From: a virus
IMG/VR virus record: IMGVR_UViG_3300044732_002040
Span: 1-64,000 of that record
Direction: 5' to 3' (one strand)
DNA length: 64,000 nucleotides
In this document: positions 16,471-55,944 of the stretch, piece by piece
Layout of the letters: each line of letters opens with the position of its first letter
Numbering within the stretch: position 1 is the first letter of the stretch
The notes under the pieces: generated by a model
What the model saw: the letters and a program-made list of their open reading frames with translations, nothing else
The model's database searches: none
Told to the model about the DNA's origin: nothing
Program-made: the position numbers and the translations under genes

Positions 16471-16908
16471 TTATTTTTTTGTTTTATAAAATTCAAAAGT
16501 TTCGTCTTTTTCAAAGACATCTGATATTATTTTTTGAGATATGGACTCAATCATTGGTTTCATCTCATCTGAATTTATAGGTAAAAATGGTTCTTTTTTA
16601 AATAAAGTTATTTCAACCGACATAAAACTTCTTTTATCAAAATTAATACCTGATGAAGCCATATTAAAATCTACTATTGATTTTGTTTTGTGGAATTCGG
16701 TATCGTTTAAAATTTCAAACAACTTACTTTTTACTCTTTTTGATTTTTTCTTAATGATATTATCGTAATTTTCTAAACCATACTCTTTAGGTTTTCCCCA
16801 CGCGGATATTTGGATATAAATAGATTTAGGTTCTTTGTTATCTACTGTACCCGATATTACGTTATATTGGTATGGGGTTTCTACTCTCATTTCTTTACCT
16901 CTTTTCAT
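16471..16908 (-). CDS. Unknown protein translationally coupled to glutamine synthetase
   Basis: A 145-residue protein not recognised. It has a beta-rich N-terminus (YQYNVISGTVDNKEPKSIYI), a basic helix (KKKSKRVKSKLFEILND) and a C-terminal helical part. Its start overlaps the glutamine synthetase stop (TAATG), and the pair ends in a terminator, so the two are expressed together. Whether it acts with the synthetase or is a virion protein is unknown; no PII or GlnB-like motif is visible. Confidence 0.5.
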   Translation of the reverse strand: MKRGKEMRVETPYQYNVISGTVDNKEPKSIYIQISAWGKPKEYGLENYDNIIKKKSKRVKSKLFEILNDTEFHKTKSIVDFNMASSGINFDKRSFMSVEITLFKKEPFLPINSDEMKPMIESISQKIISDVFEKDETFEFYKTKK

Positions 16909-17987
16909 TATTGAATTGTTTCTGCCACTGTGTTATACACGGTATCTAACATTCTTAAAGAAACCATATAAGGGTCACAATTTGACGCCGGTCTTCTATC
17001 TTCAAAATAACCACATCCGTCAATTATTGCTTGAGCTGGAATTCTAATACTTGTGTCTCTTGTACTATATCCATAACTAAAATCGTGAATACTAGATGTT
17101 TCGTGTTCACCACTTAATCTTTCATTGTTATGTAAACCATAAACTTTAATGTGTTCTTCATGATTATTTTTGAGTTTTTCCATGGTATCCTCAATTATCT
17201 TCAAACCACCTTCTTCACGCATTTCTTTTGTTGAAAAATTAACATGACATCCTGAACCGTTCCAATCACCTTTTAGTGGTTTTGGGTGTAAAGATACGTT
17301 TACATCGTTTTCTTCTGCCACACGGTCTAAAATATATCTAGAAACCCACAATTGGTCTGAACCATTTAATGGTGCCACAGGTCCGATTTGATACTCCCAT
17401 TGACCTAAAAGAACTTCGGCATTAATACCAGAAACCTCTAAACCTATTTCTAAACATTTTTCCATGTGTTCCTCAACAATTTTACGACCAACAACTGTAT
17501 CTGAACCGATACCACAATAATAGTCCCCCTGTGGTCTAGGTAATCTAGAGAGGTCACTAGTAAAACCTAGAGGTAACCCTACACCTTCCCCAAAAGGCAT
17601 TGATGGTTTATGGGTTAACGTATATTCTTGTTCCCAACCAAACCAAACATTACTCTCAATGTTTTTATTTTCCAAAATAAACTGACTTAATTTATACCTA
17701 GTATTACTTTTATGTGGTGTACCATCAGGATTCATTACCTCACAAAAAACCAATAAATGGTTTCCACCTCTAAAGGGGTCTTGTTTTACAAAAACTGGTT
17801 TAAGTATACAATCTGTATTTTTACCTTTACCTGCTTCTGCTTGATTTGTTGAGCTACCGTCAAAAGACCACAATGGGTACTCTGACGCTTTTAATGTATC
17901 AGCTTTAGAAACTACTTTTGTTTTACTCCGTAATTGTTGTGGTTGATTACCATCCAACCAAATGTATTCTAATAAAATTTTATTCAT
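16908..17987 (-). CDS. glnII: Glutamine synthetase, class II (eukaryotic type)
   Basis: A 359-residue enzyme of the family that makes glutamine from glutamate, ammonia and ATP. Hallmarks of the class II form are present: WSFDGSST at 40-47, GWEQEY at 117-122, NAEVLLGQWEYQIGP at 189-203, NGSGCHVNFST at 243-253 with the active-site His248, R315-IP, and EDRRPASNCDPY at 329-340. Length is normal for GSII and no key motif is lost, so activity is likely. It lies between holin and protease genes in the late head block, not with nucleotide metabolism genes. No promoter motif is evident in its short upstream gap, so it may rely on readthrough. Confidence 0.93.
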   Translation of the reverse strand: MNKILLEYIWLDGNQPQQLRSKTKVVSKADTLKASEYPLWSFDGSSTNQAEAGKGKNTDCILKPVFVKQDPFRGGNHLLVFCEVMNPDGTPHKSNTRYKLSQFILENKNIESNVWFGWEQEYTLTHKPSMPFGEGVGLPLGFTSDLSRLPRPQGDYYCGIGSDTVVGRKIVEEHMEKCLEIGLEVSGINAEVLLGQWEYQIGPVAPLNGSDQLWVSRYILDRVAEENDVNVSLHPKPLKGDWNGSGCHVNFSTKEMREEGGLKIIEDTMEKLKNNHEEHIKVYGLHNNERLSGEHETSSIHDFSYGYSTRDTSIRIPAQAIIDGCGYFEDRRPASNCDPYMVSLRMLDTVYNTVAETIQ

Positions 17988-45648: not shown

Positions 45649-47178
45649 TTATAAAATAATTGTCCAATTGGCTGTGGCACCAGTTAAATAGTTTATTGAG
45701 GAAATACCGTCATAACCTCCTGTTGAGGTATCAGGTGCCGAATTTCCACTTATATCGAGAGTAACACCGGACCATCTATTTAAATTATTGGAAGTTATAC
45801 CACTAAAATCATATAAAATATGATTAATATTTGTAGTAGACATACCATTACCATCTAAATAAATTGATGCCCCATAAGTAGAATTAACGTCCATGGTGAT
45901 TCCAGATAAGGGTTTAAAATCTACATACCCTAAACTAGTACAAGCGTACATAGCAAAAGCACTATTTGGTGGGTCTGAGGCTATATTTTTAAATGTTTTT
46001 GTTGTGTAAGGAAAATTAATAGAGGTTAAGTTATTATTTATATATATAGAAAAGTTACCACCGAGACCACTCAACATAGAAACATCATGTATACCTGTTA
46101 TATTACAAAGACTTAATGCATATGAAGTAAAATTTTGTGTTGAGCCGGTGTGTAAAATAGATGTTAAATTATTATTATTACCTAAATTAAATGAACCACC
46201 TAAACCAGGAAACATACGCATATCATAAGTTCCTGTTAAATTACAAGAACCAACATCATAAACTATAAATGGTAGGGTCGAGGTTGTATGTGTTATTCCC
46301 GTTAAATTTGTGTTTTGACTAACTCTAAACAGACCACCTAAATTAGGGAACATTGATACATCGTGGTTACCAATTAAATTACACGAATCTGCTCTATACG
46401 TATAAAAAGTTTGTGTAGAAGCAGTATGTAAAATTTTTGTTAAAAGGGGATTATTTCGTAAATCAAAAGTTCCCCCCAAACCAGACAACATACTCACATT
46501 ATGAGTACCTGTTAAATTACAATTATAGGCCCAATAAGAACCAAAATTTTGTGTTGAAGTGGTATGTGTTATTCCTGTTAAATTAAAATTATTGTAAATT
46601 AGGAATGAACCGCCCAAACCAGGAAACATAGATAAATTATAATTACCCAGTAAATTACAACTGTGTACAATATAAGATATATTATTATATGTGTAAGAAT
46701 GTGTTATTCCTGTTAAGTTTCCATTTGAATGTGCTAAAAATATAGAATTTAAATTAACGTTACTCATATCATGGTTCCCAATTAAACCACAATTATTAAG
46801 GTCAACAGAACTAGTAATATTTGGGTATGTGACCCCGGTTAATTGAGGGTTAAAATTTAGGCTTACACCAGTTAAAAACTCTAAAGGACTTAAATCAACA
46901 TTACCCACAATTAAATCTGAATTTGAAGTTATGAAGTATACATCGGTAAAGGTATCACCGATAATTTTAACTTTTTTAAGTGTACCACCATCAGAATATA
47001 CTTTACTAAAAGATAAACCAGTATCGTAACTAGAATTATCTCCGTAATCTATATGGAGGCTTTTTTGAAAAAGATTTCTAAAAAAAGAGGGGTTAAAAGT
47101 TGTTGCACTACTAGCATTAGTGTAGTAGGTAAAAACTTTGTTTTCTTTATTATTTGGTTGGAATAACCCTCTACTCAT
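45649..47178 (-). CDS. Fibre/adhesin with six 46-residue leucine-rich-like repeats
   Basis: A 509-residue protein. From about residue 125 to 400 it has six 46-residue repeats, each like CNLTGTHNVSMLSGLGGTFD, then a NNxxLTxIxHTxSTQxF strand pair. The Asn/Leu/Gly layout resembles solenoid LRR-type (BspA-like) folds. A C-terminal part (LGYVDFKPLSGITMDVNSTY) continues the theme. No nuclease or protease motif is visible. It is coupled to the YadA-like gene (its start overlaps the stop of the gene before) and ends 33 bases before the 45615 promoter. Confidence 0.6.
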   Translation of the reverse strand: MSRGLFQPNNKENKVFTYYTNASSATTFNPSFFRNLFQKSLHIDYGDNSSYDTGLSFSKVYSDGGTLKKVKIIGDTFTDVYFITSNSDLIVGNVDLSPLEFLTGVSLNFNPQLTGVTYPNITSSVDLNNCGLIGNHDMSNVNLNSIFLAHSNGNLTGITHSYTYNNISYIVHSCNLLGNYNLSMFPGLGGSFLIYNNFNLTGITHTTSTQNFGSYWAYNCNLTGTHNVSMLSGLGGTFDLRNNPLLTKILHTASTQTFYTYRADSCNLIGNHDVSMFPNLGGLFRVSQNTNLTGITHTTSTLPFIVYDVGSCNLTGTYDMRMFPGLGGSFNLGNNNNLTSILHTGSTQNFTSYALSLCNITGIHDVSMLSGLGGNFSIYINNNLTSINFPYTTKTFKNIASDPPNSAFAMYACTSLGYVDFKPLSGITMDVNSTYGASIYLDGNGMSTTNINHILYDFSGITSNNLNRWSGVTLDISGNSAPDTSTGGYDGISSINYLTGATANWTIIL

Positions 47179-49673
47179 TATGTATAGTCATTACCGACAG
47201 TCCAAAACATTTTAGAACCGTTATAAGTGAAAGATAGTATATCTACAGCTAAAGGTGTAGCTGTTAGGGTTGGTGAACCACCCCCACCATTTACAACTAA
47301 ATGTGTTGTAGCAGAACCATTGACAGTACCAAAAGTAGCTGTTCTTGAACCAACAATATCCTGATTAACTATAACAGTACCATATTCACCATCTCTAACA
47401 TTTATTAAGTCAAGTGTGGTATTTGCTGTTATTGTGATATCGTAATTTGTACTTTTACCTGAAATATTTAAAGTAATAGACGGACCTGTCACATAAAATT
47501 CGTATGGGTCAATTGATACACCGCCACCACCACCAGATGTACCAACAACTACATTACCATTAGAATCTATACCTAAATTATTTATTGATGTACCTGCACC
47601 TAAATTATCTATATTAAGATAGGGAACATAAACTGTATCATCAGTTGTACCAGTTAAATTCAACCCACCCAAAAGAACACTTCTATTACCTGTAAGTAAT
47701 GAACCTACTGAATGGATGAATGATGTTTCACCAGAAACAGTTGACCCAGAACCACCAGCGTGTGAAAAATTACCATAGGCGTTGGTGTAATAACCCTCAG
47801 CATGAGAACCCTCACCTATAGCAAATGTACCACTTCCTTGTGCGTGTGAAAAATTACCATAAGCAGTTGTACCTTGACCTTCAGAGTGTGAATCAGAACC
47901 AAAAGCAGTTGTAAAATTATTTTGTGCGTGTGAATATTGACCGTAAGAAACACTACCATAACCTTCTGCGTGTGAATACACACCATAAGACAATGTTTGA
48001 TAACCTTCAGCGTGTGAAATGTCACCTATAGCTTGTGTAGTCATACCTTCAGCGTGTGAAGCTGCACCTAAAGCGACAGTCGATAGACCTTCAGAGTGTG
48101 CGTTATCACCCACAGAAATATAAGCTAAAGGACTATTATAATTGTTATAATCAACTACATTTACTGAAACTAACGGTATAATAACACTGTTATTACTTAA
48201 ATTAATAAAGAAATTAGGTGCCGAATAACTTGTACCAGTATAAGTATAGAATTGATTATTAAGTAATACCGTACCACTAGTAAATTCAGCAGAATAATCA
48301 ACATTATCACCAATAGTAACAACACCAGAGACAATAGATGTTGCTGTTAAAGCTCTATAACCAGCAATAGTTTGATATCCCTCAGCGTGGGTTGAATCAC
48401 CTAAAGCTAAAGTTTGGTAACCTTCAGCGAATGACGCTGAACCGAGAGCTAATGTACCACCACCAAAAGCAGAAGAACTTACACCATCGGCGGTATTACT
48501 TATACCTAAAGCAATAGAACTTAAACCGTTTGCTGACGACCCAATTGTTTGTAAACTATCCCAAAAGGTTATTGGTGAACATCCGTGGACATTTGTCACA
48601 TATAAATCGGTAATACAAGATGCTGACGTGTTTCCAGTAAAAATTGTTGATGAAACTAAATTATCTACATATTCTTTATCTACTAGGGAACGATTGGAAT
48701 AGTTAGGTGAGTAATCTGAACCATATTTAATTCCTTGGAAAGTTGGTATTGTTGAGTTAGCTAACATAGCACTCTTATTCACATAAAATTCATTTACAGT
48801 ACCACCTGAGTCGGAATAATCTAATGCAATACCTTTTGATGAGATAGCGTAAATAGAGAATGTTTCTAGGTTAGTTAGTCTTCTATTGAATAACGTTGCA
48901 TAATCTTTACTAATAACAGTACCGTTTATATACTCTAAAGAATTCCCATAATTAACATAATTAATTATTGAGGAACCGGTAAAACCCGAAAAATATAAAT
49001 CTACATTATCAGCAACACTAACTACAGTATTACCAGTAATTCTAAGGGGTAGATAATCTAGTAAGGCTGGTTTTATATCAACATTATATGCGTTAGATAA
49101 ATCAGTTCTATTAAATTCTATTATAGTTCCATTAAGAGTGGCCCCAGTTGTATAATTATCAACGGGTGGTAACCAACTACCATTACCACTTACATCAGAA
49201 GTGAATACATAACCATTTACTTGTGAACCATCATTAATTCTAACAGTATTATTGATTTCTAAATCACCCGCATTAAAGTAAATGGTACCACCAGGAGTAC
49301 AAGGAACAATATTTGTTACATTTAAAGGCGATGTACAAGCAGAAACGGACCAACTTATACCACTAATAGGTGACCAACCTACTGAACCATAAGGGTCTAA
49401 GGCTTTAAGGACATAATTTTCAACATTAACAGTTGTTGTTCCTGTTGAACCACTTTGTTTTAGTTCCGGTGGTAATATCTTTAAACCTGATATTCTACCA
49501 CCATTTAAATAACCTGTTAAATCTGTTATTGTGACCGAAGTTTCGGCTGTTGTTGTTCCAGTAAAATCTAAAACCGTTGGTGCAATAGAGGTGATACCCG
49601 AAAGTTTTATACTTTCATCACCATATTGTACCATTTGTCTATCCTCAAAATGAGGTCTTGTTATAAAATTCAT
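47178..49673 (-). CDS. Trimeric YadA-head-like tail fibre
   Basis: An 831-residue protein. Residues about 385-640 carry about 14-residue repeats of the YadA head type (SHAEGYQTLALG, SHAEGMTTQAIGD, SHAQGSGTFAIGE). In YadA this forms a left-handed beta-roll trimer. Upstream, CITDLYVTNVHGCSPI and VTNIVPCTPGGTIYF are modules shared with other fibres. The C-terminal ~150 residues (SIDPYEFYVTGPSITLNIS) are a separate beta domain. A long fibre shaft is the most likely role. Confidence 0.7.
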   Translation of the reverse strand: MNFITRPHFEDRQMVQYGDESIKLSGITSIAPTVLDFTGTTTAETSVTITDLTGYLNGGRISGLKILPPELKQSGSTGTTTVNVENYVLKALDPYGSVGWSPISGISWSVSACTSPLNVTNIVPCTPGGTIYFNAGDLEINNTVRINDGSQVNGYVFTSDVSGNGSWLPPVDNYTTGATLNGTIIEFNRTDLSNAYNVDIKPALLDYLPLRITGNTVVSVADNVDLYFSGFTGSSIINYVNYGNSLEYINGTVISKDYATLFNRRLTNLETFSIYAISSKGIALDYSDSGGTVNEFYVNKSAMLANSTIPTFQGIKYGSDYSPNYSNRSLVDKEYVDNLVSSTIFTGNTSASCITDLYVTNVHGCSPITFWDSLQTIGSSANGLSSIALGISNTADGVSSSAFGGGTLALGSASFAEGYQTLALGDSTHAEGYQTIAGYRALTATSIVSGVVTIGDNVDYSAEFTSGTVLLNNQFYTYTGTSYSAPNFFINLSNNSVIIPLVSVNVVDYNNYNSPLAYISVGDNAHSEGLSTVALGAASHAEGMTTQAIGDISHAEGYQTLSYGVYSHAEGYGSVSYGQYSHAQNNFTTAFGSDSHSEGQGTTAYGNFSHAQGSGTFAIGEGSHAEGYYTNAYGNFSHAGGSGSTVSGETSFIHSVGSLLTGNRSVLLGGLNLTGTTDDTVYVPYLNIDNLGAGTSINNLGIDSNGNVVVGTSGGGGGVSIDPYEFYVTGPSITLNISGKSTNYDITITANTTLDLINVRDGEYGTVIVNQDIVGSRTATFGTVNGSATTHLVVNGGGGSPTLTATPLAVDILSFTYNGSKMFWTVGNDYT

Positions 49674-49678
49674 TTATA

Positions 49679-50827
49679 TTATATTACATTCCAATGATGA
49701 CCAAGAGGTCTGTATTGTAGTGATTTATTAAGTTGTTCTGCTTCAACAGCCTTACGAGTCAACATTGCGTCAGGAGTTAATCTTATAAGACGTTCTTTTA
49801 ATCTTTCCCATAAAGCTGCTTTATCGTCTTTAGCTTCACTTAAAAGAGAATCATAATCCATTGTTACTTCAGCATCAGTTATACCTAGAACACCACCAAA
49901 TTTACCTCTAACTCTACCTAATGTTTCTTTACACATTGCTGTAAAATAATCTCTTACCCATTGTTTAGAAGGTGTATTTAATTCATCAAAATTAACCACA
50001 TCTACAGGTACGTCTGAAGGTAATTTAATTATATCTTTATTTTCATTAAGACATCTTTGTCTTTCTTCATCGTCAGCTACTTCATAATAGTGATACCAAA
50101 CCTTTCTACCTGTAACATTCATACCATTTGAAGAAGCGTTGGCCAAACCAAATATAGCTCTAGAACCTGGAGGTGGAATTAAATGTAATAATTTTGTTCC
50201 ATTAGGTCCTGCGGTAATTTTATAAACCAAATCAGAAGAGAATATTCTTTGTTTAAGGTTGTAATCAGCGTTTCTAGATAAGATATCGTAAGCAGGTGAA
50301 ATATAAAATCCACCAGAACCATATCCACCGCCACCGCCACCAAAGGGAAGTTGACCATATCCACCACCATATCCATAGTCACCAAATCCGTATGTAGAGT
50401 AAAGTGCGTTATCAATTGTTGGGTTTGATACCCATAAAACTTCATTAATCTCACGTCCAGCAGGAATCTCATAAACTTGTTGGTGACTCACGATTGTAAC
50501 GTAATCTTTTTTTAATTCCCAAGGACCCCTAGCTTGTAAACCAACAATTTTAGAGTAAGCGTAAGTAAAAGTATCTTCGTAATTTTGTTCCCTAAGAGTT
50601 AAAGATTTGGCGATATCAGTTATTGTAATATCTTTACCATATAAAGAAGACCATTGTGATTCAATTAACCATTCATTAATATAAGCCGAATAATCTTCAA
50701 TAGAAATCTCAAGTAAAGTACATAACATCTCGTCCTCCAATTCAATTTTTCTAATTGGAGCACCTAGTCTATGTTTAATCTGTCTAAATAATTTAGACTT
50801 TTCTGCTTCGTTTATTATTAATGACAT
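49679..50827 (-). CDS. Structural protein, possible neck/connector
   Basis: A 382-residue protein. The N-terminal ~60 residues (FRQIKHRLGAPIRKIELEDE, then MLCTLLEISIEDYSAYINEW) are helical, like gp6-type connector adaptors. A Gly/Tyr-rich segment (YGFGDYGYGGGYGQLPFGGG) interrupts the middle, and the C-terminus is helical with LTPDAMLTRKAVEAEQLN. It is the first gene of a unit that continues into the YadA-like fibre. A neck or head-tail joining role is a guess; the family is not certain. Confidence 0.45.
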   Translation of the reverse strand: MSLIINEAEKSKLFRQIKHRLGAPIRKIELEDEMLCTLLEISIEDYSAYINEWLIESQWSSLYGKDITITDIAKSLTLREQNYEDTFTYAYSKIVGLQARGPWELKKDYVTIVSHQQVYEIPAGREINEVLWVSNPTIDNALYSTYGFGDYGYGGGYGQLPFGGGGGGYGSGGFYISPAYDILSRNADYNLKQRIFSSDLVYKITAGPNGTKLLHLIPPPGSRAIFGLANASSNGMNVTGRKVWYHYYEVADDEERQRCLNENKDIIKLPSDVPVDVVNFDELNTPSKQWVRDYFTAMCKETLGRVRGKFGGVLGITDAEVTMDYDSLLSEAKDDKAALWERLKERLIRLTPDAMLTRKAVEAEQLNKSLQYRPLGHHWNVI

Positions 50828-50891: not shown

Positions 50892-51203
50892 TTATTCATA
50901 TATACCGTATCCCAAAAACAATTCTTCACCCTCGTTAATATCAGAAATTACCTCAAAATAACTAATCTTAGATTCGATATCTACTTTTAAATGCTTTACG
51001 TTATAGTTTTTACTACTATTTAAAAAAGAACCAAACCCGATATGTATATATTTAATATCGGGTTTATAGTAAAATACGTATTTATTTATTAGATTATGTG
51101 GTACTACCTCTAAAATATCACAAGTTAATATAGTATCTTTTGGTATAAAATTTTTAGCAAAAACACTCTTACCGTGTATATCACTTTTTTTTATTACAAC
51201 CAC
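50892..51203 (-). CDS. Minimal SET-domain protein (putative lysine methyltransferase)
   Basis: A 103-residue protein that is almost only a SET domain. HGKSVFAKNFIPKDTIL corresponds to the opening GxG-V-A element, IGFGSFLNSSKNYNVKHLKV to the R-F-x-N-H-S-x-x-P-N region (here F60-LNSS and N68), and SYFEVISDINEGEELFLGYG to the IxxGEEL-x-x-Y element, with Tyr99 in place of the usual DY. The His of NHS is Ser here. Size recalls the chlorella-virus vSET enzyme. The substrate is unknown. It overlaps the fibre gene 51194 by 10 bases, implying coupled synthesis. Confidence 0.78.
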   Translation of the reverse strand: MVVIKKSDIHGKSVFAKNFIPKDTILTCDILEVVPHNLINKYVFYYKPDIKYIHIGFGSFLNSSKNYNVKHLKVDIESKISYFEVISDINEGEELFLGYGIYE

Positions 51204-51751
51204 ACTCTTATAGAAACTAAAGTATTACTCAATAAATCATTTGACATTGCGTCACTAACACTTGATGCTCCAGGAGGTGCTACAAGTAGACTAGAACCTT
51301 CAATATCAGTAGTCCAAGTACTGGTTCTAACCTCTATTAAATCATCAGAAACTCTATTTATACTATAAATATTAAAAGCTGCGTTTGACATAGTATAAGA
51401 TAAAACAATAGTATTATTCATATAAACCTCAACTTTTGATACGGCACTAAAAGCACCAGTTTTACTGAAATAGTAAGACCCGACATCAGTGTAAGACCAA
51501 GAACCACCACTTATTGTATTAACTAGTACACTTTCCATAGGTGCCGATGTACCAGTTTGGGTTAATAAAGCTCTATACTCTAAATAATTAACTTTAGGTT
51601 GCCATGTAACATTACCTGAATCGTTAGAGGTTAATACATAACCATTTGTGGCCCCAGAAGTTATTGTTAAAGTCTGTGCGGTTAAACTACCATTAATTAA
51701 TCCATCTCCCTTAGAGATAAACCCATTTTTTATATTAAATTCATTACTCAT
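51194..51751 (-). CDS. Short tail fibre protein
   Basis: A 185-residue fibre protein. The N-terminus FNIKNGFISKGDGLINGSLT, with NGYVLTSNDSGNVTWQPKV, is a typical shaft-attachment sequence. YRALLTQTGTSAP is the module also present at 39277 and 42638. The C-terminal ~100 residues are a beta domain (YMNNTIVLSYTMSNAAFNIY). A late-type motif is 29 bases upstream. It is the likely first gene of the fibre-SET unit. Confidence 0.6.
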   Translation of the reverse strand: MSNEFNIKNGFISKGDGLINGSLTAQTLTITSGATNGYVLTSNDSGNVTWQPKVNYLEYRALLTQTGTSAPMESVLVNTISGGSWSYTDVGSYYFSKTGAFSAVSKVEVYMNNTIVLSYTMSNAAFNIYSINRVSDDLIEVRTSTWTTDIEGSSLLVAPPGASSVSDAMSNDLLSNTLVSIRVWL

Positions 51752-51793: not shown

Positions 51794-52513
51794 TTAACTA
51801 AAACGTATCTTTAAAGTGTTATAATTTTGTAAAACTTCTGAAGAAGATAAGGTTTTTGTGTAAACCATAAAATTATTTACCCTAGCTGGTAAAAACCATG
51901 TTTTTGCTGGTGCAGAATAAGCACCTATATTAAAATAGGTATTTGTGTTAAAATAACAATTTAAACTAGTCGTAGTACCTTCTAAAATACCATTAACATA
52001 TAATGACATAGTACTTGTTAAAATATTGTAGGTACCAACAACATTATACCAAGTATTTGTTTTCCAATTATTTGTTGTTGAATAAATTATAGCGAATGGG
52101 TTAAATGTTTGAAAACTAACCCTACCAGAGGAAGCACTAAGTAAACTAATATAGTTATCAACACCTCCTAATAATGTGTTTTGTGCCTCGACAAACATAT
52201 AATTATTTGTATTAGCAGAAGTAATATTAATAGTTGGGTTAAACCATATACTAAAAGAATAGTTGCCAAATGTCTGATTAGAAGTTATTTGTGGTAAACC
52301 GATATAATCATTTGTACCATCAAGAACTAAACAACCTTTATTTGTTTCAGAAAATGTTACACCATTAATTAATGTACCACTATTTTTTTGTTGTGTACTA
52401 ATATCACCCCAAGAAGTACTACCGCTAACATAAGATTTATTATTTGAAGCATCTAAATAATAAATTAAATTATCTAAAGTAATATTTGTACCACCTTTTA
52501 ACGTACTCATCAC
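51794..52513 (-). CDS. LamG/ConA-like adhesin 1
   Basis: A 239-residue protein made of one laminin-G-like domain. YYLDASNNKSYVSGSTSWGD, then LVLDGTNDYIGLP, FSIWFNPT, NVVGTYNILTSTMSLYVNGI and LSSSEVLQNYNTLKIRF are shared with two sister genes at 52783 and 53526. The family binds glycans or proteins. The set is a candidate receptor-binding array. Its start overlaps the stop of the 85-residue gene by one base. Confidence 0.72.
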   Translation of the reverse strand: MMSTLKGGTNITLDNLIYYLDASNNKSYVSGSTSWGDISTQQKNSGTLINGVTFSETNKGCLVLDGTNDYIGLPQITSNQTFGNYSFSIWFNPTINITSANTNNYMFVEAQNTLLGGVDNYISLLSASSGRVSFQTFNPFAIIYSTTNNWKTNTWYNVVGTYNILTSTMSLYVNGILEGTTTSLNCYFNTNTYFNIGAYSAPAKTWFLPARVNNFMVYTKTLSSSEVLQNYNTLKIRFS

Positions 52514-52770
52514 TAACTAATTTCTTCCGTGGATGTCCACTCAACACCGTTTAATATGACCACAATTTCATCATAAGTATAAGGACCTTCTTTTGTCATT
52601 AACGAATCTATTGAGGATGGTATTATTTCACCGTCCCACTTAACAAATGTTTTTGTTTCATCAACTGATTTTCTAACTGTATCTACTGATGTCTCTAATA
52701 CCTCAGAAAAATCAATGTTAAATAATTCAGATACATTAAAAATCATAAATTGTCTATTGCTGTATTCCAT
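52513..52770 (-). CDS. Small protein between LamG adhesins
   Basis: An 85-residue protein (MEYSNRQFMIFNVSELFNID; TSVDTVRKSVDETKTFVKWD). No family recognised. The length, position between two adhesin genes and charged sequence are consistent with a fibre chaperone or tail-fibre assembly protein, but this is context only. Confidence 0.45.
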   Translation of the reverse strand: MEYSNRQFMIFNVSELFNIDFSEVLETSVDTVRKSVDETKTFVKWDGEIIPSSIDSLMTKEGPYTYDEIVVILNGVEWTSTEEIS

Positions 52771-52782
52771 AATTTTTATTTT

Positions 52783-53529
52783 TTATAAACCATATCTTTT
52801 TTTGATGGCGTTGTAATTTTGTGAGATTTCACTTACTGATAAAACTTTATTATAAATTTGTATAATTGATAGACTTCCGTTAAAATATGCAATAGGTGTT
52901 ACAGCACCATCACCAAGAAGTGCTCCTAAATAAATTAAATTTGGGTTTGTTAATTTAGGTGTGTGACCAGAAGCAGAAGATACTGTAGTTTTTTTAACAT
53001 TGTTAATATAAATCGCATAACTTGTACTCTCCCAATTAATAACTAAATTATACCAACTACCACCAATAAATGACCCACCGTCAGTAACACCAGTTCTTTT
53101 ATTAGATGGTAAACTCAAATCAGCAATTGTTATATACTCATTTGTTAATTGATTAGTAGCAGCACCAAGTGTTATATAATATGCGGAATCAGGGAAACCT
53201 TGTGCAGTTATATTTCGTCTCAATTGTATTAAAGCGTTATTACTTGATGATGAATTTATTGTAGATGTAGGTTTAAACCATATACTTATACTATTAACGT
53301 CAAAAGAGGTTAAACTACTTTTATTTATATAATCATCTACTCCATCAAGTACAAGGCTACCAACGTTTTCACTATTAAAAGTTGGCCCGTTTTGTAATGT
53401 TCCATTATTACCACCTACACACATATCACCCCAAGTTGTTGACCCACTAACATACGACTTAACGTTTGCCGCATCTAAATACAACACTAAACCATCTGTT
53501 ACCACATTAGGCGCTACATTTCCACTCAT
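52783..53529 (-). CDS. LamG/ConA-like adhesin 2
   Basis: A 248-residue laminin-G-like protein, paralogue of its two neighbours: YLDAANVKSYVSGSTTWGDM, LVLDGVDDYINKSSL, SISIWFKPTS, INNVKKTTVSS and the C-terminal VSEISQNYNAIKKRYGL. Paralogous blocks keep the first 60 residues closely and diverge in the middle, where loops would contact ligands. It overlaps the next gene by 4 bases, so the adhesins are translated together. Confidence 0.72.
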   Translation of the reverse strand: MSGNVAPNVVTDGLVLYLDAANVKSYVSGSTTWGDMCVGGNNGTLQNGPTFNSENVGSLVLDGVDDYINKSSLTSFDVNSISIWFKPTSTINSSSSNNALIQLRRNITAQGFPDSAYYITLGAATNQLTNEYITIADLSLPSNKRTGVTDGGSFIGGSWYNLVINWESTSYAIYINNVKKTTVSSASGHTPKLTNPNLIYLGALLGDGAVTPIAYFNGSLSIIQIYNKVLSVSEISQNYNAIKKRYGL

Positions 53530-54242
53530 AATCCAAACCTAGTTTTTAAAGTATTATAATTTTGTGTTATTTCTATTTCAGATAAAGCTCTATTATATAT
53601 TTTAATTGAGTATATTTTTCCGTTATAAAAATCTGCCGTTGGGTTATTTAATCGTGCGATTCGAATAAAATTTGGATTTAAACTAGATATATTATTGTTT
53701 TGTATAGAACTATTATCAACTACACCATTTATAAATAATTTTGTTATAGTATTAGCTTTAAATGTTGCAACTAAATTATACGTTTTATTAGTTAGTAATG
53801 TAGAAATGGATGCTAGAGATTTAATTGACCCACTATTATTCTGCACATCATCACGATACCCAAATACAAATTTTCCTGAAGTATTTAAATATATACCACA
53901 TGATGTGTTACCACCATTAAAAAATTGTGCATATATAAAACGGTTTCCCACACCAAAAAAACTATTAATATTAACCCAAACATCAATAGTAACTTCACTA
54001 AAATTAGTAAAACTAGAGTTTTGGTTATTTATTAACTCAACATACTCATCAATACCGTCAAACATAATACTTCCTCCGTTTAATGAGTCATATGTTGGGT
54101 TATTTATTAAAGTACCATTAGTATAATTTTTTGTTAAATCATTAAAAGACGTAAACCCACTAATATAAGATTTTGTATTTGCAACATCTAAATACATTAA
54201 TAACCCATCTCTTACTATTTTTGGTGAAAAATTAAAACTCAT
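53526..54242 (-). CDS. LamG/ConA-like adhesin 3
   Basis: A 238-residue laminin-G-like protein, first of the three in translation order. YLDVANTKSYISGFTSFNDL, IMFDGIDEYVELINN, VTIDVWVNIN, KLFINGVVDNSS and LSEIEITQNYNTLKTRFGL show the shared family layout. The strict order of the three genes with small overlaps indicates tandem duplication. It follows the 54244 fibre gene by 1 base. Confidence 0.72.
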   Translation of the reverse strand: MSFNFSPKIVRDGLLMYLDVANTKSYISGFTSFNDLTKNYTNGTLINNPTYDSLNGGSIMFDGIDEYVELINNQNSSFTNFSEVTIDVWVNINSFFGVGNRFIYAQFFNGGNTSCGIYLNTSGKFVFGYRDDVQNNSGSIKSLASISTLLTNKTYNLVATFKANTITKLFINGVVDNSSIQNNNISSLNPNFIRIARLNNPTADFYNGKIYSIKIYNRALSEIEITQNYNTLKTRFGL

Positions 54243-54243
54243 A

Positions 54244-55944
54244 TTATATACTTCTTACAATTGTTTTTAATGTCCATCCTGATGTATTAGCAGAACTACT
54301 AAACATTGCTGTAGTACCTGTAACTGAGACTGAAAATATAACACCACTAGTGTCACCAATATCATTAGTGGATACATCTGTGTATTGTGATGTGGTACCA
54401 CTCCATATTGCCATTACATTACCAGCTCTAGCTCCTGTTGAACTAATTAATGTATAATCAAAGAAAGCACCTGTATAAGCACTTGTAGGTATTGAATAAA
54501 CTGTATTACTTCCTGATGATAATGTTTTTTTAACGGTAGTATTTAATGAAGGTGCTTGATAAGAACCCATTAAAACTGTATTATCACTAAATGTTTCTAA
54601 TATAGGTAATCCTGAAATATCATTAACTGAAAATAGGGAACCAACTAAACTATCCGAAATTGAGAACAATTCCCCACTTGAACCCTGTACACTAAATATT
54701 GGTGTTGTCGTTCCTGAACCATATATTTTAACAACGTCAGTAGTTGCTCCCGAAAAAATTGAATTTCCATTAACATGTAGTTTTGCTGATGGTGTTGTTG
54801 TACCGATACCAACTCTACTATTTAACACGTCAATTGTGACCCCACTTGTGGAACCAAAATAAACATTACCTTCATCTAGAGGATTTATATTTAGTGGTGA
54901 ACAAGCATGAATATTTGACACATGTAAATCTGAAATACAATCTCCCGATGTATTTCCCGTGAATTTTAATGAAGATAAATCAACGGAATAAGCGTTCAAT
55001 AAATCAGTCCTATCAAATTCTATGGTAGTACCATTTAATGTGGCCCCTGTTGTGTAATAATTAGTATATCCTGTTAAAAATCCTGATACATCAAAAGTAC
55101 CACCAGTACTATTTGTAAAAGTTGCTATACCAGTGGTATTATTATAAACACCACTAACCACAGTTATATCATTAGATAATGAAGATAAATCTACACTAAA
55201 GGGATTAAACCCATAATTACCTGATAAATCTATAGATTGTGTAGATATATTATAAGTACCACCTGTAACAAATGAATCATAAGTGGGTAAATCAACTAAA
55301 TAAGTAACACCAGTACCACTAATAGTACCACCACTCATTATAATATCCCCGTTTACAACAACTAATTGACTATCTCCGTTTAATTCTATTAAACCCTCAA
55401 CGTATAAATCACCATAAACAAACCCTTGGTAACCGTCATTTACAACTACGGTAGTACCAACAGGAACATGCCACCTATTATTTAAAGAATTACTTATTAC
55501 TGAGGATAAATCAATACTAAAGGGATTAAACCCATAATTACCTGATAAATCTATAGATTGTGTTGGTGTATTATAAGTACCACCTGTAACAAAAGTATTA
55601 TATGTTGGTAGGTCTACTAGGTATGTTGTACCAGTACCACTAACAGTACCTCCACTCAATATAATATCTCCGTTTACAACAACTAATTGGCTATCACCAT
55701 TTAATTCTATTAAACCCTCTACATACAGGTCACCATAAACAAACCCTTGATACCCATCATCAATAACAACTGTTGTACCAAGAGGGACGTGCCATCTATT
55801 ATTTAAAGAATTATCCCCTAGGGCATCTATCTGACTTTGTAGATTACTAATACAACTATTTAAGGATAAGAAATTTCCGTCTAACTCATTAAACGTTAAT
55901 TTACTCCCTTTTACCGTACGTAATGTTAATGGACAATTTGGCAT
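54244..55944 (-). CDS. Tail fibre protein with tandem 107-residue duplication
   Basis: A 566-residue fibre protein. After MPNCPLTLRTVKGSKLTFNE come two 107-residue copies (NNRWHVPLGTTVVIDDGYQG; NNRWHVPVGTTVVVNDGYQG) with GDLYVEGLIELNGDSQLVVV and SIDLSGNYGFNPFSIDLS. A third relative is in the 42638 protein. Then come CISDLHVSNIHACSPLNINP with VYFGSTSGVTIDVL, RVGIGTTTPSAKLHVNGNSI (a typical fibre-end motif), and a C-terminal beta domain. It has its own late motif. Confidence 0.65.
   Translation of the reverse strand: MPNCPLTLRTVKGSKLTFNELDGNFLSLNSCISNLQSQIDALGDNSLNNRWHVPLGTTVVIDDGYQGFVYGDLYVEGLIELNGDSQLVVVNGDIILSGGTVSGTGTTYLVDLPTYNTFVTGGTYNTPTQSIDLSGNYGFNPFSIDLSSVISNSLNNRWHVPVGTTVVVNDGYQGFVYGDLYVEGLIELNGDSQLVVVNGDIIMSGGTISGTGVTYLVDLPTYDSFVTGGTYNISTQSIDLSGNYGFNPFSVDLSSLSNDITVVSGVYNNTTGIATFTNSTGGTFDVSGFLTGYTNYYTTGATLNGTTIEFDRTDLLNAYSVDLSSLKFTGNTSGDCISDLHVSNIHACSPLNINPLDEGNVYFGSTSGVTIDVLNSRVGIGTTTPSAKLHVNGNSIFSGATTDVVKIYGSGTTTPIFSVQGSSGELFSISDSLVGSLFSVNDISGLPILETFSDNTVLMGSYQAPSLNTTVKKTLSSGSNTVYSIPTSAYTGAFFDYTLISSTGARAGNVMAIWSGTTSQYTDVSTNDIGDTSGVIFSVSVTGTTAMFSSSANTSGWTLKTIVRSI
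55181..55813. repeat. 321-bp tandem duplication in the fibre gene
   Basis: The segment starting GATAAATC...GGGATTAAAC near 55181 recurs 321 bases later with scattered changes, encoding the two 107-residue units. Confidence 0.9.

Follow-up and report, generated by a model that had tools for sequence, protein, structure and literature searches.

To our knowledge, nearly all that is known of SET enzymes concerns the modification of histones and other eukaryotic proteins. A viral member, vSET, is the A612L product of the Paramecium bursaria chlorella virus PBCV-1 (PDB 1n3j, 3kma) and is a histone H3K27 methyltransferase. Stand-alone SET domains have also been annotated in phages. Those of Menderavirus (Moby, Yut2, Ps15 ORF62) are about 100 aa in length, and one is listed as a protein of unknown function (PMC9025141). 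The cyanophages (P-SSM7 PSSM7_204, many IMG/VR contigs) encode stand-alone SET proteins of comparable size, and longer forms of 131-145 aa are found in jumbo phages (LR756501, IMG/VR 317-kb contigs). SET domains are not mentioned in a large review of the jumbo phages (PMC7824862). In the literature found, which covered few subscription journals, the annotated phage SET proteins are assigned no role, and no report links them to fibres or to methylation of the virion.

Small genes located downstream of fibre genes often encode chaperones. The tail-fibre assembly proteins Tfa and T4 gp38/gp57A are of this kind: the small gene lies directly downstream of the fibre gene and is transferred together with the tip. 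We know of no SET fold in these proteins. Methylation of an external filament is represented by FliB, which modifies surface lysines of flagellin and promotes adhesion (PMC7181671). FliB is an unrelated [4Fe-4S] enzyme (PMC8598068), and its likeness to the protein described here lies in the proposed role, the methylation of exposed lysines on an external filament encoded by the same genome. In the present locus a known fold occurs in a genomic association that is new, that with fibre tips.

The SET gene and its fibre cluster

The window, which is the whole stretch of DNA analysed, covers 64 kb of the virus record, which is 69.8 kb long, and encodes a T4-type portal and a terminase. Some of its proteins resemble those of uncultured 635-735 kb phages, and SET genes are present in two of these three phages as well. 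Since several proteins of the fibre cluster resemble Flavobacterium phage proteins, the host is likely to belong to the Bacteroidota. Two further genes of the window were noted. The glutamine-synthetase-like protein (16908-17987, minus strand, 359 aa) matches the catalytic domain only at profile positions 4-157 of 344 and is ~70% identical to proteins of the 635-642-kb uncultured phages, the other shared genes being ~25-50% identical. A ClpB-type AAA+ protein of 827 aa is encoded by the phage at 31485-33968 (plus strand).

The SET gene and its surroundings are composed of the following features:

50892..51203, minus strand: stand-alone SET protein of 103 aa with a GTG start codon and the NSS motif (translation, Pfam, phmmer, AlphaFold2)
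51194..51203, minus strand: overlap of 10 bases between the beginning of SET and the end of the fibre gene (likewise 10 bases in L120, 2732-2741, and in L159, 4028-4037)
51194..51751, minus strand: tail-fibre-like protein of 185 aa, directly upstream of SET (tip 31.5% identical to Flavobacterium phage elemo proteins)
51197..51598, minus strand: tip A, the C-terminal fibre domain of ~130 aa (40-44% identity to L120 and L159, with the SET gene next in each)
51794..52513, minus strand: Laminin_G_3 (concanavalin-like) fibre-cluster protein (Pfam E=7.7e-18; PHROG virion structural protein)
52513..52770, minus strand: fibre-cluster protein of 85 aa (homologous to gene 222 of phage Immuto, 43% over 44 aa)
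52783..53529, minus strand: Laminin_G_3 protein (Pfam)
53526..54242, minus strand: Laminin_G_3 protein (relatives stand before SET in L123 and L136)
54244..55944, minus strand: fibre of 566 aa (resembles a fibre of the SET-bearing L136, 47% over 182 aa)
49679..50827, minus strand: protein of 382 aa whose gene is the first one downstream of SET (a head-tail adaptor PHROG is matched in part)
47178..49673, minus strand: fibre of 831 aa with YadA head repeats (Pfam, PHROG)

A 509-aa protein of the same cluster (45649-47178, minus strand) contains repeated NNLTxIxHT and SCNLTGxHDVSM units, has the appearance of a leucine-rich-repeat adhesin and has no Pfam match.

The initial annotation had described a stand-alone SET domain of 103 residues, located among fibre genes and overlapping one of them by 10 bases. 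The position is as described, with Laminin_G_3 proteins upstream and the YadA-head-repeat fibre downstream, and the overlap is exactly 51194-51203. The GTG start is supported by L120 and L159, both of which have an ATG at the aligned position and an overlap of equal length. Translation of 50892-51203 on the minus strand gives 103 aa and a stop codon, and the elements HGKSVFA, GFGSFLNSSKNYNV and GEELFLGYG follow each other in the order reported earlier. The complementary strand of this open reading frame is interrupted by stops.

The Pfam SET profile (PF00856) matches the protein from end to end (profile 1-105/105, E=1.6e-6) with a score of 29 bits, the curated cut-off being 22.4 bits, and the virus record of the window gave the same match when it was searched. 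Among the solved structures of the PDB, the best relative found by phmmer is vSET (E=1.8e-5), which is also the first match of a 67-row SET family profile (E 7.5e-25). An AlphaFold2 model based on a 66-row alignment has a mean pLDDT of 92.2 and a pTM of 0.81. The predicted fold matches vSET (3kma) with a TM-score of 0.83 and a Z of 14.0, 97 of 103 residues being aligned at an rmsd of 1.9, and the putative knot-forming segments (57-68 and 92-99), as judged from the alignment, fall inside the aligned span. The structural comparison with vSET that had been proposed as a check thus returned a SET fold, and the resemblance holds in sequence, in profile and in the model. The open reading frame is a complete stand-alone SET domain. 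It shares with vSET the stand-alone organization, the size (~100-119 aa) and the full-length fold match; unlike that of vSET, its gene is coupled to a tail-fibre tip.

Pairing of the SET gene with fibre tips

Relatives of the window SET were not found in a single-protein scan of viral contigs and were recovered by alignment-based scans. At least 168 candidate stand-alone phage SET genes came from one viral-contig scan and more from further scans. A match in AerS_266 (H12, 401 aa) was discarded as it has no SET motifs. Several contexts recur among these genes. The cyanophage SETs have an intact NHS motif and a shorter insert, unlike the window SET, and in most contigs, more than 30 of cyanophage type (L014, L051 and L094 are examples), the gene is directly upstream of those for the baseplate wedge proteins gp25 and gp6. 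About 12 contigs, L127 and L131 among them, have the SET gene between the genes of the terminase large subunit and the portal. In about 16 jumbo-type contigs it adjoins genes for a 171-aa protein and a helicase; these NHS forms are about 31% identical to the window SET and, unlike it, retain NHS and a YGDxYW-type segment. As the gp25/gp6 and terminase/portal contexts recur, phage SETs accompany virion genes in several lineages. The Menderavirus SETs, which are about 30% identical to the window SET and carry the same NSS, are located among small hypothetical genes, away from fibres.

Some features of these loci were recorded separately. A PAAR protein is often encoded two genes before SET in the gp25/gp6 cyanophage contigs. 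The SET of L020 (18299-18742 of LR756502, a 642-kb phage; also L012) begins with MRYLKTFESF and reads differently at the NHS position; its neighbours start alike (MKHIRQFESY, MKYIKTYENH), which is possibly a shared targeting peptide comparable to the T4 capsid-targeting sequences. Small SETs with NHS or NHD/NHN motifs are present in genome contigs of Flavobacteriales, Alcanivorax and Burkholderiales (L213-L247), where they are either prophage or bacterial.

The SETs closest to that of the window (55-58% identity) are those of L120 and L159, with which it forms a group in the SET tree (support 100/99). In both, the fibre encoded before SET ends in tip A. The N-terminal stems of the three fibres are mutually different, and so are the genes after SET and the genome backgrounds. 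A degenerate-pattern search with tip A returned SET-bearing loci only; a distant homologue unaccompanied by SET occurs in the Flavobacterium phage elemo proteins. The model of tip A, built from three sequences, has a pLDDT of 47.8, which is too low for a fold comparison.

The second tip, tip B, is found in the gene before SET in L122, L139, L156, L165, L191 and L201. Used as the sole query, it identified 14 loci; the patterns were again degenerate, and tips too distant for them, accompanied by SET or not, may exist. In all 14 loci the next gene downstream encodes a SET of this group, with the NSS motif or, in L306 and L307, NSA; five (L297, L298, L299, L304, L308) had been missed by SET queries. 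Tip B is present in one copy per contig, on the fibre preceding SET, even where the contig encodes several fibres. Profile comparison detected no relation between tips A and B, and their treatment as one family was abandoned. The SET clades track the tip type, the tip A clade with a support of 100/99. There are exceptions: in L136 SET adjoins a tip of another kind, and in Menderavirus, L130 and L163 it is away from fibres. Immuto, a cultured relative, carries a tail locus of this kind that lacks SET. The pairing of tip and SET has been shown to be conserved across different genome backgrounds.

Frequent recombination of fibre loci, seen here in the stems that differ between relatives, could carry along a small open reading frame that has no functional link to the tip. 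Such a passenger would hardly stay with tip B at all 14 loci down to 41-50% tip identity, and pairwise dN/dS values of 0.18-0.31 (five NSS pairs) indicate that the NSS-type SET genes are under purifying selection and are therefore maintained. This explanation is very improbable.

The initial annotation had named two possible substrates, a lysine of the fibre and a host DNA-bound protein. The first proposal is considerably strengthened, at the level of sequence, by the fact that the SET gene is coupled, in different phages, to particular fibre-tip domains. For the second no support was found; the NSS subfamily sits with virion genes. The latter belongs to a wider explanation, in which the protein is an active methyltransferase with a target other than the fibre, either in the virion (tail sheath, baseplate, head protein) or in the cell, where it could be a DNA-bound protein of the host, in the manner of vSET and histone H3. 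The resemblance to vSET is in its favour, as is the fact that the NHS phage SETs have baseplate, terminase/portal or helicase genes, and not fibre tips, in their vicinity, but the tip-linked NSS subfamily follows the fibre tips while the remaining neighbours change. Histone H3 itself is not expected in a bacterial host. Activity on another target is accordingly regarded as quite unlikely.

Within the tips, a conserved lysine of tip A is retained in the SET-less elemo homologue, and the notion that it is conserved only where SET is present was given up. An invariant lysine of tip B (AGRCVE..K), seen among SET-bearing loci, is, by eye, not retained in the remote tip of L123. For these reasons no particular lysine is singled out; nor is a single substrate motif proposed, because tips A and B lack sequence relation.

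Catalytic residues and the role of the SET protein

The window SET carries NSS, within LNSS, in place of the NHS of active SET lysine methyltransferases. NSS is found in 13 rows of the 66-row alignment. S7, F15, N62, E94 and Y99 are invariant across the NSS and NHS classes, so that the catalytic tyrosine (Y99) and the cofactor asparagine (N62) are present in 66/66 rows. The putative SAM pocket was judged from residue conservation. Ser13, at the nearly invariant second glycine of GxG, is found in the window SET alone. The residues Tyr50, Asn69 and Tyr105 of vSET correspond to Y42, N62 and Y99, whereas His70 of NHS is replaced by Ser63 and Tyr16 by Lys12. Beyond the counterpart of Tyr105 the protein is reduced to GIYE, its C-terminus being GYGIYE. 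The aromatic segment next to the lysine channel, a feature of active SET methyltransferases that is represented by the C-terminal aromatic residues in vSET and by YGDxYW in the NHS jumbo-phage forms, is absent. This is common to the NSS members, which often stop right after the catalytic tyrosine, many of them with KYL.

The LNSS sequence had been taken earlier as casting doubt on activity. Random decay in the window alone does not account for it, as NSS is common to related proteins and the dN/dS values are low. The NSS members cluster in the SET tree, where the label requires three changes and is thus not a single clean clade. The other half of the doubt stands: with the C-terminal segment absent and S13 present, altered or lost catalysis is possible in the window SET.

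Loss of catalysis with retention of the fold would suit a chaperone or adaptor of the fibre tip, assisting its trimerisation or folding. Like the genes of Tfa and T4 gp38/gp57A, to which it is likened by description, the SET gene lies directly downstream of a fibre gene and is inherited together with the tip; it serves two unrelated tip types, has NSS in place of NHS and lacks the C-terminal aromatic segment. A scaffold, however, need not keep the catalytic tyrosine, the cofactor asparagine and Glu94, which are present in every NSS member, or the GxG motif, which is present in nearly all. The retention of these residues, together with the tyrosine matching Tyr50 of vSET, favours a working methyltransferase. 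When they are weighed against the NSS change and the missing segment, which argue for altered or lost catalysis, the chaperone, the main rival, appears rather unlikely, and the chance that the window SET is a translationally coupled, SAM-dependent lysine methyltransferase dedicated to the fibre tip and acting on the fibre is put at about even.

The overlap of the genes, the purifying selection and the joint inheritance with the tip type indicate that the SET protein works together with the fibre; its point of action is probably the tip. As a methyltransferase, it would be a minimal enzyme of the vSET type, reserved for the fibre encoded by the overlapping gene. Because the start and stop overlap by 10 bases, ribosomes that end the fibre gene would probably start SET beside the new fibre chain. 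The conserved GxG region would bind SAM together with N62 and the knot, and Y99, with Y42, would transfer the methyl group to a lysine of the neighbouring fibre or of its tip. The tip may in this way be tuned in charge, folding, stability or receptor binding. More tentatively, and at somewhat less than an even chance, the NSS proteins constitute a subfamily of phage SET lysine methyltransferases in which every member serves a single type of receptor-binding tip and is passed on with that tip as a cassette.

The occurrence of a SET gene after a fibre-tip gene points to a virus that marks its own host-recognition part chemically or assists its folding. From the pairing, a concrete proposal for the substrate can be made for one group of phage SETs. 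If it is true, the fold of a histone methyltransferase would have a virion-directed use, and the protein would show the minimal size of a working SET domain and whether the histidine of NHS is dispensable. Phages would then modify their own receptor-binding tips post-translationally, a control of host recognition that is hidden from sequence.
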